Assembly: GCA_009885905.1 (NCBI GenBank)
Contig: VFJU01000042.1
Span: 1-5,994 of the forward strand
Source: Verrucomicrobiota bacterium
GTDB taxonomy: Bacteria > Verrucomicrobiota > Verrucomicrobiia > Verrucomicrobiales > Akkermansiaceae
Length of the DNA: 5,994 nucleotides
Direction: 5' to 3'
This document shows positions 3,001-5,994 of this stretch, in pieces. Made by a program: the position numbers and the translations under genes. Numbering within the stretch: the first letter of the stretch is position 1; each line of letters opens with the position of its first letter. The notes beneath the pieces are model-generated. The model was not told where the DNA came from. It worked only from the letters and a program-made list of their open reading frames with translations, and searched no databases.

Positions 3001-3929
3001 GGTGTGACACTCACTCCCGTTAAGCTACCCGCCGTAAAGCTACCAGAGGTTCCCGTAATATTAGCCGTGCCGCTGTAGGCTAACGTGCCATTGTATGCCA
3101 CGGTGTTTTCACTGGCATCTTTCGCAGTGATGGTGACACCCGTGATCGCTTGGCCTACCGTCTGGTTCGCAGAAATCCCAGAGATGGTGAAATGATCTAG
3201 ACTTCCTGGCGTGAAGGTCACATCCACATTACTCATTAGAATCTGGTCCGCATTCGTATCACCCGTGTTCTGAAAGCCGACGCGATTGAGGACATAGGTC
3301 AGTGGAGTTGTGTCCGTGAATGTCATGTTGGCAAAGTCGAGACCATCGGAATTGCGCTTAAGCGAGGTGGTGGTCACCAACCCACCTGTAGCATTGCGTG
3401 CGATGTTGACGGTGAAATTATACTGGGTGTTTGTGAGTACGACCCCCGATCCCATGCCTGCAGCACTGAACACCAACGCGGTGGCACCGGTGGAACTCGA
3501 AAATGCACCAGTGTTAGGGCTGTTCCGTTCGTAAATCGTGCCAGTGCTGATGGATCCCGTGTTGAAGGCAAAATAGCCGAGCCAACCATTCGTGGTGGCA
3601 CTGCTGTTCAAATTAAACAGGCCGAAGCGAAAAAACCCACCGCTGGTGCCCGTCACACTGGCTCCTGCAAAAGTGGCCGAACCCGTAAGTGTGATGGCAT
3701 CTCCCTCGGCCGCGAGGGTGATGGAAGGGAAACTCGCATAAAGGTTTGAGGCCTTTGCATTGTCTGCCGCACCACTGCCCCAAGTAGGTGAGGCAGTAGC
3801 CGTGTTGCTCAGGATGGTGGTGGTTGACGTTGTCGCCCAAGGTCCTGCGACTGGTCCCGCTTTGGCCAGAGATGCAGCGAGCACGAATGCGAAAAGTTTT
3901 ATTTGCGTGGGTATTTTTATGGATTTCAT
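1..3929 (-). CDS. Giant secreted Ig-like / autotransporter-associated beta-strand repeat protein, 3' end outside window
   Basis: One uninterrupted frame runs from the ATG at 3927-3929 off the left edge (1309 codons plus 2 nt). I translated it through without meeting a stop. The start is the first ATG after an in-frame TAA at 3942-3944; no clear Shine-Dalgarno sequence precedes it. Residues 1-24 are a Sec signal peptide (Lys at 2, 5 and 11, hydrophobic core, likely AKA cleavage site). Residues 25-242 form a Gly/Ser/Thr/Asn-rich domain shared with the gene at 5321. Residues 243-648 are four Ig-like modules of 98-104 residues. A GNWSDNTKW motif just after Trp651 opens the repeat region, as is typical of PATR proteins, and five beta-strand repeats lie between residues 774 and 1263. 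The last visible part (TVDQLYFG...AAGTWGASGSGA) resembles the closing module that usually comes shortly before the C-terminus of such proteins. The protein is probably exported and exposed at the surface or in the matrix. No catalytic motif was seen. The anchor (PEP-CTERM or other) is not visible. A role in adhesion is inference only. Confidence 0.9.
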   Translation of the reverse strand, partial: MKSIKIPTQIKLFAFVLAASLAKAGPVAGPWATTSTTTILSNTATASPTWGSGAADNAKASNLYASFPSITLAAEGDAITLTGSATFAGASVTGTSGGFFRFGLFNLNSSATTNGWLGYFAFNTGSISTGTIYERNSPNTGAFSSSTGATALVFSAAGMGSGVVLTNTQYNFTVNIARNATGGLVTTTSLKRNSDGLDFANMTFTDTTPLTYVLNRVGFQNTGDTNADQILMSNVDVTFTPGSLDHFTISGISANQTVGQAITGVTITAKDASENTVAYNGTLAYSGTANITGTSGSFTAGSLTGVSVTPTVVGASKTFIVTGAGKTGTATFNVQAAAATSLTVSGFPNPQSLGNAGSVTVTAKDTYGNVATGYTGTVSLSTGDSAANLPSNYTFVAGDAGVHTFSGVIFNTAGMFTLTATDTVSSSITGSQSGIVISANDAAVSLTLSGFPSPQAAGAAGSITVTAKNSNGATSTSYSGTVHFTTSSTLAGLPSDYTFVSSDNGVHTFSGVTLNSAGSQSITATDTVSSYVTGTQSGITVTGASASGFVLSGFSSPRAINVPGSITVTVVDSYGNTATGYTGAVNFTSSDPIATLPSSYSFLSGDAGVHTFTGLTLNTLGTQSVTVSDAISSISATQSGISVINLSNFTWAAAIAGNWSDNTKWTADSGAIAAPANGGRSDYKLNFALPGAYTTTQDLTGGFQANQLNFSSTGVSTATVTIAGANAITMTSDGSNNPQINLGSNTTATIAPPIGLASDTSFGGSGTGTLTLSGLISGSGVLVKNGPSKVSITGLTNSYSGGTIVNAGTLSAGVTDTTPATLGTGPVTVNSGGILSLERGNRSNAVSLNGGTIISNNGFGCSLSGSFALSATSTIQTSFNMSINGITSGTGGIIKTGSGPLSLTNSDNAFTGPVSIQAGKILASTINSVVGGSATSGLGAPVTVADGTISLGSGNTSGTLFYQGYGETTDRVINLAGTTGGGIVEHFGSGPLKFTSDFTASGLGIKSLTLQGTGSGMGEISGRIVDSTSGTTSLVKSGSGGWTLSGANSYTGSTSVTAGTLLIAKPSSLYSAVEANWTAAKITVSSDATLAINAGGSGEFSGTQIGTLLSNLSVSNANGLKANALFGINTNNAPSAVTISSPISNSTGTTGGALGVMKDGDGTLDLTGTNTYSGTTKISQGTLKVSGSGRLGSGGIYAGAIQFGVGANFVFSSSADQTLSGLIDGQGTITQSGTGTLSLVGDALNLNSYAGITVNSGILAVNGFAIDDLTTLVINGGKVQPTGVETVDQLYFGSVQKAAGTWGASGSGA
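141..1610 (-). repeat. Five autotransporter-associated beta-strand (PATR-type) repeats
   Basis: Units of the form G(x)IxGxGxxxKxGxGxLxLTGxNxYxGxTxVxxGTLxV are seen at 1491-1610 (residues 774-813, VKNGPSKVSITG...GTIVNAGTLS), 1152-1277 (885-926, IIKTGSGPLSLT...VSIQAGKIL), 735-866 (1022-1065, VKSGSGGWTLSGANSYTGST), 372-476 (1152-1186, MKDGDGTLDLTGTNTYSGTT) and 141-269 (1221-1263, ITQSGTGTLSLVGD...ITVNSGILAV). Such units are known to form right-handed beta-helix passenger domains. Spacing is irregular, with poorly matching linkers between units, so the repeats are old and diverged. No autotransporter barrel domain is visible, but the C-terminus is missing. Confidence 0.82.
1978..3203 (-). repeat. 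Four tandem Ig-like modules in the giant protein
   Basis: The module starts, marked by a hydrophobic-x-SGF or ISGI motif, fall at residues 243, 341, 445 and 548, giving lengths of 98, 104, 103 and about 101. The last three align closely: SGFPxPQ or SGFSSPR, then GSxTVTxxDxYGN (less exact in the middle unit), then GYTGxVxF, then LPSxYxF, then GVHTFxG, then TVSSxxTGxQSGI. This is the pattern of the Ig-like or invasin-type beta-sandwich repeats found in many bacterial surface proteins. The first module is more diverged (DHFTISGISANQTVGQAITG). These modules probably act as spacers that hold other domains away from the cell; this role comes from family knowledge and is not shown here. Confidence 0.8.
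3259..3839 (-). repeat. Left arm of a 581-bp inverted repeat (paralogous domain)
   Basis: This segment inside the giant gene matches 5414-5994 in inverted orientation without gaps (position p pairs with 9253 minus p). By hand count there are about 67 mismatches in 581, or roughly 88% identity. A 51-bp stretch at 3393-3443 is identical to 5810-5860. The match ends only because the window ends, so the true arm may be longer. Confidence 0.88.
3858..3929 (-). other. Signal peptide coding segment of the giant gene
   Basis: Codons 1-24 give a positively charged start (MKSIKIPTQIK), a hydrophobic core (LFAFVLAASL) and a predicted signal peptidase I site after AKA at residues 22-24. This sequence shares nothing obvious with the signal peptide of the paralogue at 5321, although the mature domains are nearly identical. 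Confidence 0.8.
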
Positions 3930-4032
3930 GAGTGTGAATGATTACAGAGCGTTAAACGTGGATTTTTTAGTTAACAATTAACCAAAGGGGAGAATAAGAA
4001 AACCATTCAAAAACCAATTATTTTTAACGTCC

Positions 4033-4064
4033 GCAAGATTATATCTGCCATATTTCCTCGCTAA
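4033..4064 (-). promoter_or_regulatory. Candidate promoter of the giant gene
   Basis: Reading leftwards, the operator is followed at once by TTAGCG (4059-4064) and, 15 bp further, by a perfect TATAAT at 4038-4043. The -35 box is poor and the spacer is short. The block is supported mainly by its similarity to the equivalent stretch after the second operator (AAATATG and CTTGC are shared). The transcription start is not known. A start just after the TATAAT would give a leader of roughly 100 nt. Confidence 0.45.
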
Positions 4065-4085
4065 CTAGCCGAAATTACCGACTAG
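4065..4085 (-). promoter_or_regulatory. Predicted operator 1, 21-bp imperfect palindrome
   Basis: The plus strand reads CTAGCCG, seven bases, CGACTAG. Read in the direction of the giant gene, it matches the site at 5234-5254 at 19 of 21 positions. The two half-sites (CTAGYCG and its complement) form an inverted repeat suited to a dimeric helix-turn-helix protein. The nearest candidate is the regulator encoded immediately upstream. The site lies 135 bp before the giant gene's start codon and directly next to the promoter-like block. Confidence 0.72.
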
Positions 4086-4149
4086 ATTAATACATCAATT
4101 CGTCACAAGAAACGAGGAGACGAAAAAGTGGCAGGGTTCAATTTCTTGA

Positions 4150-5226
4150 TCACCCCTTCCACGCCGGACCAATGCTGCCACCGTCTATGAACTGGGCAGG
4201 TACCACGCTGGGTTTGCGGTCTGGAAGTCCTTTTTTAACTGATAAAACCCAGCGAACCACGTGCCGAACCATGGGCTTCGAGTCCGACTTGATGTGGGCG
4301 ATGCCAGAATGACACCAAGCGAACGCAGGATCATCACCGGTCGCAACCAATGATACCTGTTCGGGCACATGGAGGCGCCTCCGTGCCAGAAATTCCATGG
4401 TGGCGATGAATTGGGCCGTCTCGCTAATAATCATCGCTGTTGGAGGCGTTAAGCGAAAAAGACTTTCTAGCAGTTGATGGAATCCTTCGGGAGTTTCCTC
4501 CCACGCCGGCAGATTGAAGTCTCCGGCAGATAGCCCGTGAAGGGCCAACTCATCTAGAAACGCCTGTTCTATTTTTCCTGGTATCGGCAAGCGGCGCGCC
4601 TTGCGTGCGATCAGCACGATGCGGCGATGCCCGAGCTCGAGGAGTCGTCGTGTGGCGCTAACATAGGCCGATAGCTTATCTGGCCCGACACTGGCTACAG
4701 GTAGCCCTAATGCACGCCCATATAGTGCGAAGCAGGGAGTTAACTGTAACGTAGACCATTTTAACAACTCGTAAGAACCCGCCACCAGAATCCATGCATC
4801 GGCTGGGTGTTGGCCGAGCATACGGGTGATTCGACCTACGTCGTGCCCAAGTTGGACTTGGGTTTTGGGCAGATAAAACAACTCGTGATCTTTCGACCTA
4901 ACATCCCTCTCGATCTGCAACAAGACTTGGCCTACCTTGTTCTGTTCATCGGACAAATCATCATGAAGCAGCATCCCCACACGAAGCGTTCGGTGTCCTA
5001 TTGCCTGAGCTGTGATGGAACGACAGCGGCCCAAACCCTGCGCACTCAGTAATCCTTCCGCCTCAAGTAAACGCAATGCGGCACGAATCGTGTCCCGCGA
5101 AACATCAAACTCCGCCGCCAACCGAGCTACACCGGGCAGCATTTCCCGCCACCGACCGGAACGCAATCCTTTGCGCAGATGCTCAGCGCACAATTCGGCG
5201 ATAGAATTTCGGTGGAGTCGGTGCAT
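4150..5226 (-). CDS. Transcription regulator with GntR-like winged helix and LacI-type sensor domain
   Basis: This complete protein has 358 residues. Residues 8-72 form a winged helix: helix SIAELCAEHLRKGLRSGRW, then LPGVARLAAEFDVSRDTIRAALRLLEAEGLL (residues 30-60) and a wing ending around Ile71. This is the GntR pattern of a recognition helix (SRDTIRAAL) followed by LEAEGLL. From Leu80 (LRVGMLLHDDL) onward it resembles the periplasmic-binding-protein-like sensor of the LacI/GalR family, including SVGPDKLSAYVSATRRLLELGHRRIVLI and a late TGDDPAFAW segment. Such hybrids usually sense a sugar or related small molecule and act as dimers in the cytoplasm; the ligand here is unknown. An in-frame TAG lies upstream at 5251-5253, so the ATG at 5224-5226 is the only upstream ATG choice. 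No Shine-Dalgarno sequence precedes it, and operator 2 ends 8 bp before it. The gene sits between two paralogous secreted-protein genes, each with a matching operator, which suggests that it regulates both as well as itself. Confidence 0.9.
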   Translation of the reverse strand: MHRLHRNSIAELCAEHLRKGLRSGRWREMLPGVARLAAEFDVSRDTIRAALRLLEAEGLLSAQGLGRCRSITAQAIGHRTLRVGMLLHDDLSDEQNKVGQVLLQIERDVRSKDHELFYLPKTQVQLGHDVGRITRMLGQHPADAWILVAGSYELLKWSTLQLTPCFALYGRALGLPVASVGPDKLSAYVSATRRLLELGHRRIVLIARKARRLPIPGKIEQAFLDELALHGLSAGDFNLPAWEETPEGFHQLLESLFRLTPPTAMIISETAQFIATMEFLARRRLHVPEQVSLVATGDDPAFAWCHSGIAHIKSDSKPMVRHVVRWVLSVKKGLPDRKPSVVPAQFIDGGSIGPAWKG

Positions 5227-5233
5227 GCAATTA

Positions 5234-5254
5234 CTAGTCGTTATTTTCGGCTAG
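5234..5254 (+). promoter_or_regulatory. Predicted operator 2, 21-bp imperfect palindrome
   Basis: The plus strand reads CTAGTCG, seven bases, CGGCTAG, with one more symmetric base pair outside (A on the left, T on the right). It is the second copy of the site at 4065-4085, in the same orientation relative to the downstream surface-protein gene. It lies 66 bp before the start codon at 5321. It also sits in the untranslated leader or promoter of the regulator, 8 bp (7 intervening bases) from that gene's ATG. A protein bound here could therefore affect transcription in both directions. Confidence 0.75.
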
Positions 5255-5292
5255 TTGGCAAGAAAATATGAATTATATCTCCTTGCCGAGGT
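5255..5292 (+). promoter_or_regulatory. Candidate promoter of the second surface-protein gene
   Basis: The operator is followed directly by TTGGCA (5255-5260), a fair -35 box, and then by an AT-rich stretch (AAATATGAATTATATCT). The block aligns without gaps to the one after operator 1. The exact -10 box is unclear: the position equivalent to the TATAAT of the other promoter reads TATCTC, and TATATC lies 2 bp earlier. The conserved alignment is better evidence than either hexamer. Confidence 0.4.
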
Positions 5293-5306
5293 ATAGGAAT
5301 AATGAG

Positions 5307-5319
5307 AGCTACGGTAGCT
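5307..5319. repeat. Short palindrome AGCTACGGTAGCT just before the start codon
   Basis: A perfect 6-bp inverted repeat with a single central base ends one base before the ATG at 5321. In RNA a one-base loop is too tight, so only a shorter stem could form. As DNA it could be a small protein site. It occupies the place where a ribosome binding site would be expected. It is not present before the paralogue's start. Confidence 0.35.
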
Positions 5320-5320
5320 T

Positions 5321-5994
5321 ATGAAAATCCAATCAACCTCCCGACTCATTCACATCAGCCTCTTTATTTGCCTCTGCACCTGCCTCAGTACCCATGGGGC
5401 AACCGTCACCGGATGGGCAACAACGTCAACCACGACCACCCTAAGCAACCAAACCACTGCATCGCCTACATGGGGCAGTGGTGCGACAGACAATGCAAGG
5501 GCCTCAAACCTATATGCAAGTTTCCCCACCATCAATCTCGCGACTGCGGGAGATGCCATCACACTCACGGGTTCGGCCACTTTTGCAGGAGCCAATGTGA
5601 CGGGCACCAGCGGCGGTTTTTTTCGCTTCGGCCTGTTTAATGTGAACAGCAGTGCCACCACGAATGGTTGGCTCGGATACTTTGCCTTTAGCACGGGATC
5701 CACCGGCACTGGCACGTTGTACGAACGAACAAGTGGCAACACTGGGGCATTTTCAAGTTCCACCGGCGCGACTGCGTTGGTGTCCAGCGCTGCAGCCATG
5801 GGATCTGGAGTCGTACTCACAAACACCCAGTATAATTTCACCGTCAACATCGCACGCAATAGTTCAGGTGCGTTAGTGACCACCACCTCGCTCAAGCGCA
5901 ATTCCGACAATCTCGACTTTGCCAACATGACATTCACGGACACAACTCCGCTGACCTATGCCTTCAATCGCGTCGGCTTTCAGAACACGACTGA
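5321..5994 (+). CDS. Secreted paralogue of the giant surface protein, 5' part only
   Basis: The frame is open from the ATG at 5321 to the right edge (224 codons plus 2 nt). An in-frame TAG at 5315-5317 makes this the first possible ATG. Residues 1 to about 27 form a signal peptide (MKIQSTSRLIHISLF, then a cysteine-rich core with Cys17, Cys19 and Cys21, ending STHGA). No proper lipobox is seen, so a lipoprotein is unlikely. From Trp32 onward it aligns without gaps to residues 31-223 of the giant gene at 1-3929, with 26 differences in 193 residues (about 86% identity). The shared part includes TASPTWGSGA, GDAITLTGSATFAGA, GFFRFGLFN and TQYNFTVNIARN. I do not recognise a named family for this domain. 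It is Gly/Ser/Thr-rich, probably beta-structured, and has no visible catalytic motif. Whether Ig-like and beta-strand repeats follow, as in the paralogue, cannot be seen here. Confidence 0.88.
   Translation, partial: MKIQSTSRLIHISLFICLCTCLSTHGATVTGWATTSTTTTLSNQTTASPTWGSGATDNARASNLYASFPTINLATAGDAITLTGSATFAGANVTGTSGGFFRFGLFNVNSSATTNGWLGYFAFSTGSTGTGTLYERTSGNTGAFSSSTGATALVSSAAAMGSGVVLTNTQYNFTVNIARNSSGALVTTTSLKRNSDNLDFANMTFTDTTPLTYAFNRVGFQNTT
5414..5994 (+). repeat. Right arm of a 581-bp inverted repeat (paralogous domain)
   Basis: This is the partner of 3259-3839. The arm begins at the first Trp of the mature domain. Upstream of it the two genes diverge sharply through the signal peptide and leader, and they become similar again only in the operator and promoter block. 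About 1.57 kb carrying the regulator and both control regions lies between the arms. Confidence 0.88.

Follow-up and report, generated by a model that had tools for sequence, protein, structure and literature searches.

The locus analyzed here raises the question of whether one regulator, placed between two related surface-protein genes, reads two copies of a palindrome and in this way governs both neighbors. The window, that is, the whole stretch of DNA that was analyzed (5,994 bp), is one entire contig (C429) of a 569-contig, 2.78-Mb assembly, and the closest named relatives of the source organism are Verrucomicrobia. ORFs and profile matches bear out the layout described in an earlier note, with a sole regulator gene (R) that has a paralogous gene on either side (A and B), both encoding predicted surface proteins, and the palindrome copies flanking R. 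The paralogy of the neighbors is equally clear (581 bp at 88% identity, and 82% protein identity over the compared part). The features in their order along the window are as follows.

3929 to 3, minus strand: surface protein A, an ORF with a signal-peptide-like start (by eye), N-terminal domain X and PATR/beta strand repeats; it runs off the contig
4017 to 4091, plus strand: A site, a copied R promoter region with no regulator behind it (aligned locally, with gaps, to the region between R and B at a score of 70.5)
4038 to 4043, minus strand: TATAAT-like -10 of A without a good -35, a weak inference read from the sequence
4065 to 4085, no strand: palindrome copy 1, CTAGCCG-N7-CGACTAG, predicted operator before A (exact pattern match; arms identical to copy 2)
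5226 to 4150, minus strand: regulator R, 358 aa, with a GntR-type winged HTH (PF00392, E 1.7e-11) and a LacI-type sensor (Peripla_BP_3, PF13377, E 5.9e-18)
5233 to 5238, minus strand: ACTAGT, a weakly matching -10-like hexamer of R that lies 6 nt from the ATG in a promoter predicted to be leaderless (located by aligning the family at the -35-like box)
5234 to 5254, no strand: palindrome copy 2, inside the spacer of R's predicted promoter; a predicted operator in the R-B intergenic region (pattern match and family alignment)
5256 to 5261, minus strand: TTGCCA, the -35-like hexamer of R, separated from the -10-like one by 17 nt (family alignment)
5321 to 5994, plus strand: surface protein B, an ORF with a signal-peptide-like start (by eye) and domain X; it is cut by the contig end

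The profile search also agrees with the regulator class named before, a GntR-type helix-turn-helix (HTH) domain being combined with a LacI-type sensor domain. Among solved structures, R matches LacI-type sensors and, weakly, the HTH of PdhR. Relatives of R occur in 40 of the 59 genomes searched, its own included, with up to 29 in one genome among the matches listed. Flanking DNA was fetched mostly for the stronger of the listed matches (97 regulators), and 95 regulators were used for anchoring. Promoter and neighbor counts cover 82 regulators, and the centre test covers the 71 that are full-length and clearly anchored. For covariation, 73 of 81 regulators were kept after removal of near-identical ones. 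Another 22 promoters were read and left out of the family statistics.

Judged from these comparisons, R likely binds the palindrome copies as a sugar-responsive repressor of itself and both neighbors. Copy 2 would occupy most of the 17-nt spacer between the -35-like and -10-like hexamers of R; a dimer bound there would block RNA polymerase, which suggests autorepression. From copy 1 and copy 2, R would repress A and B, and the sensor domain would let go of the DNA on binding a carbohydrate.

The repeated block and doubled operators

The blocks at 4027-4085 and 5234-5292 are an inverted pair with 76% identity (45 of 59 positions match when counted directly), and the palindrome copies agree at 19 of 21 positions, both fitting CTAGYCG-N7-CGRCTAG exactly, as had been reported. 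The arms match at 14/14 positions and both mismatches fall in the spacer. The exact pattern has no other occurrence in the 2.78-Mb assembly, in which about 0.04 matches are expected at equal base use, and there is no match with one mismatch. Two mismatches add 18 further places, which gives 20 in total vs 34 for a backwards control pattern. A wider regulon of the window motif was rejected, since at up to two mismatches its matches are no commoner than those of the control in the assembly.

The earlier note had called the repeats an operator-promoter module. The repeats are real, but the 59-bp block is mainly the promoter region of R itself. In a gapped alignment, the similarity of the A-side block reaches about 4017-4091, ends near the start codon of R and stops before its coding sequence. 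Since the block is R's promoter region, it is alone no evidence of a promoter for A or B. The palindrome at 5234-5254 comes within 7 bp of R's ATG, so that copy 2 lies within R's predicted promoter as much as before B.

The nature of the block favors the alternative that R represses only itself and that copy 1 is a relic of the A/B duplication without function for A. We consider this unlikely. In copy 1 the -35-like box on the R side is altered (TCGCTA vs TTGCCA), whereas the palindrome arms are unaltered, and the arms differ significantly in this respect from the rest of the block (14/14 vs 31/45 matching positions, Fisher p 0.013; p 0.052 for the whole palindrome). An altered box beside unaltered arms suggests that the palindrome may have been kept for binding. 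The intact arms could also reflect mere recency, with the coding parts 88% identical. A search for a second-regulator remnant behind copy 1 found none, its best local score being equalled by 996 of 1000 shuffles.

Relics of this kind do exist in the family. Of 95 operators, 6 recur within their own fetched locus with at least 16 of the 18 arm positions matching, vs 0.05 expected from the operators of other regulators; at 15 or more of 18, the count is 11/95 vs 0.9. The other 89 regulators have no second operator at 16/18, and many loci are shortened by contig ends. The six doubled cases are the window, L094/L184, L045, L040, L050, and L122. In L184 (G012:C431), the second copy matches at 18/18 arm positions and precedes a decayed R fragment (by eye). 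In L045 a copied R promoter has no regulator match behind it, and in L050 the doubled operator belongs to two neighboring regulators. For L122, reading by eye places the second copy within a short ORF, at its 5' end as called; this ORF has a PEP-CTERM-like tail. Some doublings resemble mere duplication traces, and the window may be one too. The doubling here probably arose by inverted copying of the operator and the surface-gene front to the other side of R.

Two of these loci have further peculiarities. At 5217-5531 of L184, a fragment resembling a surface-gene start adjoins the remnants of a regulator HTH encoded on the opposite strand, and the second operator sits in its end (by eye). At 6072-6135 of L040, tandem operators 41 bp apart (about four helical turns) precede one regulator, an arrangement that recalls cooperative AraR pairs.

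Orthologues of R were compared at 63% (L144), 68% (L034), and 70% (L033) identity. Conservation of the palindrome holds for its core, GCCGAA in the left half and CG-N-C (not TCG) in the right half, which is kept at 63-70% identity, but not for the second copy. In L034, L143, and L144, no convincing second operator was found; the best other matches reach 14/18, and a 15/18 match in L034 sits inside a sulfatase ORF. Together with the 89/95 regulators that have no second operator at 16/18, this makes the co-control of two surface genes at best special to this lineage. The proposal that R coordinates the locus accordingly retains, as an inference, the second copy with its unchanged arms and lacks conservation of the doubling. 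With one mismatch allowed, the ortholog-operator pattern CTRGCCGAA-N4-TCGNCTAG is matched in 65 of 195 genomes by raw count, and G012:C431 shows two sites for it.

In L034, R is followed divergently by two X proteins, an X-sulfatase fusion, and a sulfatase, in this order. The first X protein has a PEP-CTERM-like tail by eye and no Pfam match. In L144, the orthologue has as its divergent neighbor an ORF of 988 aa whose repeats look PATR-like by eye. L033 (CAMCYK010000127.1), which carries the locus, is titled Akkermansia muciniphila, and this species label may be doubtful. Its regulator promoter letters equal those of G378 (L143), which is placed in another genus of the window's family.

Regulator promoters and neighboring surface genes

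Regulator promoters were anchored with a search seeded with TTGACAAC, which was built on the sigma-70 -35 consensus. The layout consists of a TTGACA-like box, a 17-nt spacer, a weak -10-like box, and the start codon, and is clear and full-length in 71 of 95 regulators. The -35-like box begins 34-38 nt upstream of the start codon in 71/82 promoters, and a Shine-Dalgarno-like stretch is present in 6/82. The short distance from box to start and the rarity of Shine-Dalgarno-like stretches suggest a leaderless regulator mRNA, which is a prediction. The -10-like hexamer is weak, in that an A in second and a T in sixth place occur together in 29/82 promoters.

Two smaller regularities accompany this layout. 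The -10-like box ends 5-9 nt ahead of the start codon in 71/82 promoters. An A-rich and then T-rich stretch is conserved upstream of the -35-like box in 60 promoters, about 22-31 nt from the palindrome centre; lying on the divergent side, it resembles an UP element.

The upstream ORF is divergent for 63 of 82 regulators, vs 120 of 351 control ORFs. A divergent neighbor of the PEP-CTERM/PATR type accompanies 25/82 regulators vs 3/351 control ORFs (p 6e-17), and by the same rules 57/82 regulators are without one. These counts come from automatic ORF calling, with PEP-CTERM and PATR recognized by regular expressions, and are rough for regulators and controls alike. A conserved surface-gene promoter at a constant distance from the palindrome, as an activator would predict, was sought across 60 divergent loci, and none was found. 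Repression of the surface genes is accordingly a prediction, and a site centred near -44 of A's TATAAT could equally serve activation.

The same result bears on the alternative that R activates A and B and represses itself. It was considered since the start predicted for A lies about 44 bp downstream of the palindrome centre, and it gains from a TATAAT at 4043-4038 with a poor -35 and from a scan of 3900-5400 of the window that yielded no standard promoter at its threshold. However, no -10 is conserved at a fixed distance in the 60 divergent loci, the B copy has only a TATATC-like element, and GntR and LacI-type proteins are mostly repressors. We therefore regard activation as improbable and keep the repressor reading.

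Operator letters and the DNA-binding domain

In many relatives of R, a palindrome with other letters occupies the same position in the promoter. When 71 promoters are aligned, they share an inverted repeat whose letters vary but whose centre is fixed; complementarity there is 0.406 vs 0.300 expected. The test gave z 7.5 at centre 36 (0 of 200 permutations), and the other 17 of 18 centres stayed at z of 2.0 or less. Single inverted repeats are modest, a score of 5 or more being reached by 47% of real promoters vs 24% of shuffled ones and 21% of upstream control stretches.

Operators also differ within a genome. In G004, with 15 alignable operators, the best match to a sibling operator is 9-12 of 18 arm positions for 13/15, and the two that reach 15/18 are the neighbors in L050. 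In G044, with 18 alignable operators, all 18 have a best match of 7-13/18. Two G004 operators searched on a single 4.4-Mb contig have one site each at up to one and up to two mismatches, where the controls have 2 and 5.

Operator similarity tracks HTH similarity among the 73 regulators, with rho 0.23 and 0 of 1000 permutations as high, in a permutation scheme that ignores kinship. With the sensor domain held constant, the partial rho between HTH and operator is 0.19 (0/1000 permutations); the value for the sensor is 0.085. The columns that covary most strongly with the operator are R48 and R44, and D45 is also high. R48, R44, and D45 align by eye with R49, R45, and T46 of FadR, and so with DNA-contact residues of FadR and AraR listed in Table 1 of PMC4494728. 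The 11 contact columns score higher than the 45 other HTH columns (p 0.018 by maximum z and 0.001 by mean z) and than 83 sensor columns (p 1.4e-4). The non-contact HTH columns I9, L59, and L51 covary too, so that the contact signal is enriched and not exclusive.

The significance of the motif within the window is modest, as two matches at up to three mismatches arise in 19 of 200 shuffles, but the complementarity at a fixed centre in 71 promoters and the covariation with HTH contact residues make it scarcely credible that the palindromes are no operators but accidental or structural elements within an intergenic region that was duplicated. Of the original proposal that R binds both sites, the part in which R would read the palindrome is backed by the fixed centre, the HTH covariation, and the core kept in orthologues; the part concerning a second site is weakened, as no convincing second copy is seen in the orthologues.

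Known systems and the surface proteins

The sensor domain of AraR is of the LacI type. AraR and R have a common two-part build, with a GntR HTH and a separate sensor (PMC4218819). As described there, AraR of Bacillus subtilis uses at least eight boxes of one consensus for thirteen genes, and its palindromic operators, single or paired and released by sugar, lie in its own promoter and before polysaccharide-degradation genes, to which R and the operators predicted here are likened. Unlike AraR with its one consensus, many regulators per genome are found here, with differently spelled operators beside surface genes. The window palindrome is, by eye, unlike the AraR consensus printed in PMC4218819, and R is therefore not called AraR.

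Divergons of the GntR family, as covered in PMC4494728, similarly have a site between the regulator and a divergent gene and show HTH-operator covariation. Their single site lies at about mid-region, whereas the one here lies 7 bp before the regulator start codon. The FadR and HutC motifs given there have central GT and AC 2-4 nt apart; in the window palindrome the distance is 11 nt where these are present.

Dedicated regulation of surface proteins likewise has a precedent in the PEP-CTERM cis-element of Proteobacteria with PrsK, PrsR, and PrsT, which form a sigma-54 two-component system, in contrast to the local one-component regulators here (PMC1569441). Table 1 of Haft and colleagues lists 65 PEP-CTERM proteins and no PrsK, PrsR, or PrsT for Verrucomicrobium spinosum, and the authors state that further regulators and DNA motifs were still to be found (PMC1569441). 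Among the papers listed in searches of open-licence literature, no title or abstract opening describes the pairing of R-type regulators with surface genes.

More broadly, we give roughly even chances to the reading that GntR-LacI regulators, expanded in this lineage to up to dozens per genome, each read their own palindrome set in their own leaderless promoter and govern the adjoining surface gene. After duplication, palindrome and HTH would diverge together, and an orphan operator copy would hand R a second surface gene, as in the window. What is new is the enlarged repertoire of operators, with spellings that differ, next to surface genes; the build itself is AraR-like. A local regulator with a predictable operator beside a surface gene is a concrete candidate for PEP-CTERM regulation in Verrucomicrobia. 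The approximately 80 alignable regulator-operator pairs are natural data on the divergence of DNA specificity after duplication, and they offer a way to guess which surface proteins respond to which sugar.

For the window, the surface proteins themselves are informative on a possible ligand. The PATR repeats of A match PF12951 (E 1.2e-25, 89.7 bits vs a cut-off of 27) and TIGR02601 (E 3e-25); they are the only Pfam match of A, and B has none. The nearest full-length relative of the truncated B (P0001, 260 aa, 91%) ends by eye in PE-T, a hydrophobic stretch, and an RRRR tail, and a relative in L033 has a PEP-CTERM Pfam match. The AlphaFold model of domain X is confident and mainly beta. Its best structural matches, with modest scores, are L-type and legume lectins, thrombospondin C-terminal domains, and galectins. 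Domain X of A and B is thus predicted to be lectin-like, and a sugar-binding role is plausible. The lectin-like domain in A and B and the sulfatases beside the L034 orthologue suggest that the ligand of R is perhaps a product of a sulfated polysaccharide. Domain X occurs in 6 of the 59 genomes, its own included, so that X itself is not the common target of the family.

The window's own assembly has an X-sulfatase gene on contig C111 (L035), which, going by the gene order in L034, may belong beside B. A third operator was sought on C111, with no match at 13 or more of 18; the contig begins inside the X-sulfatase gene, and the search covers the locus from that point on. The domain X-sulfatase fusion spans 3-2810 of L035, and 2832-8339 encodes, in convergent orientation, a PATR protein of 1835 aa that also has Ig-like and SASA esterase domains.
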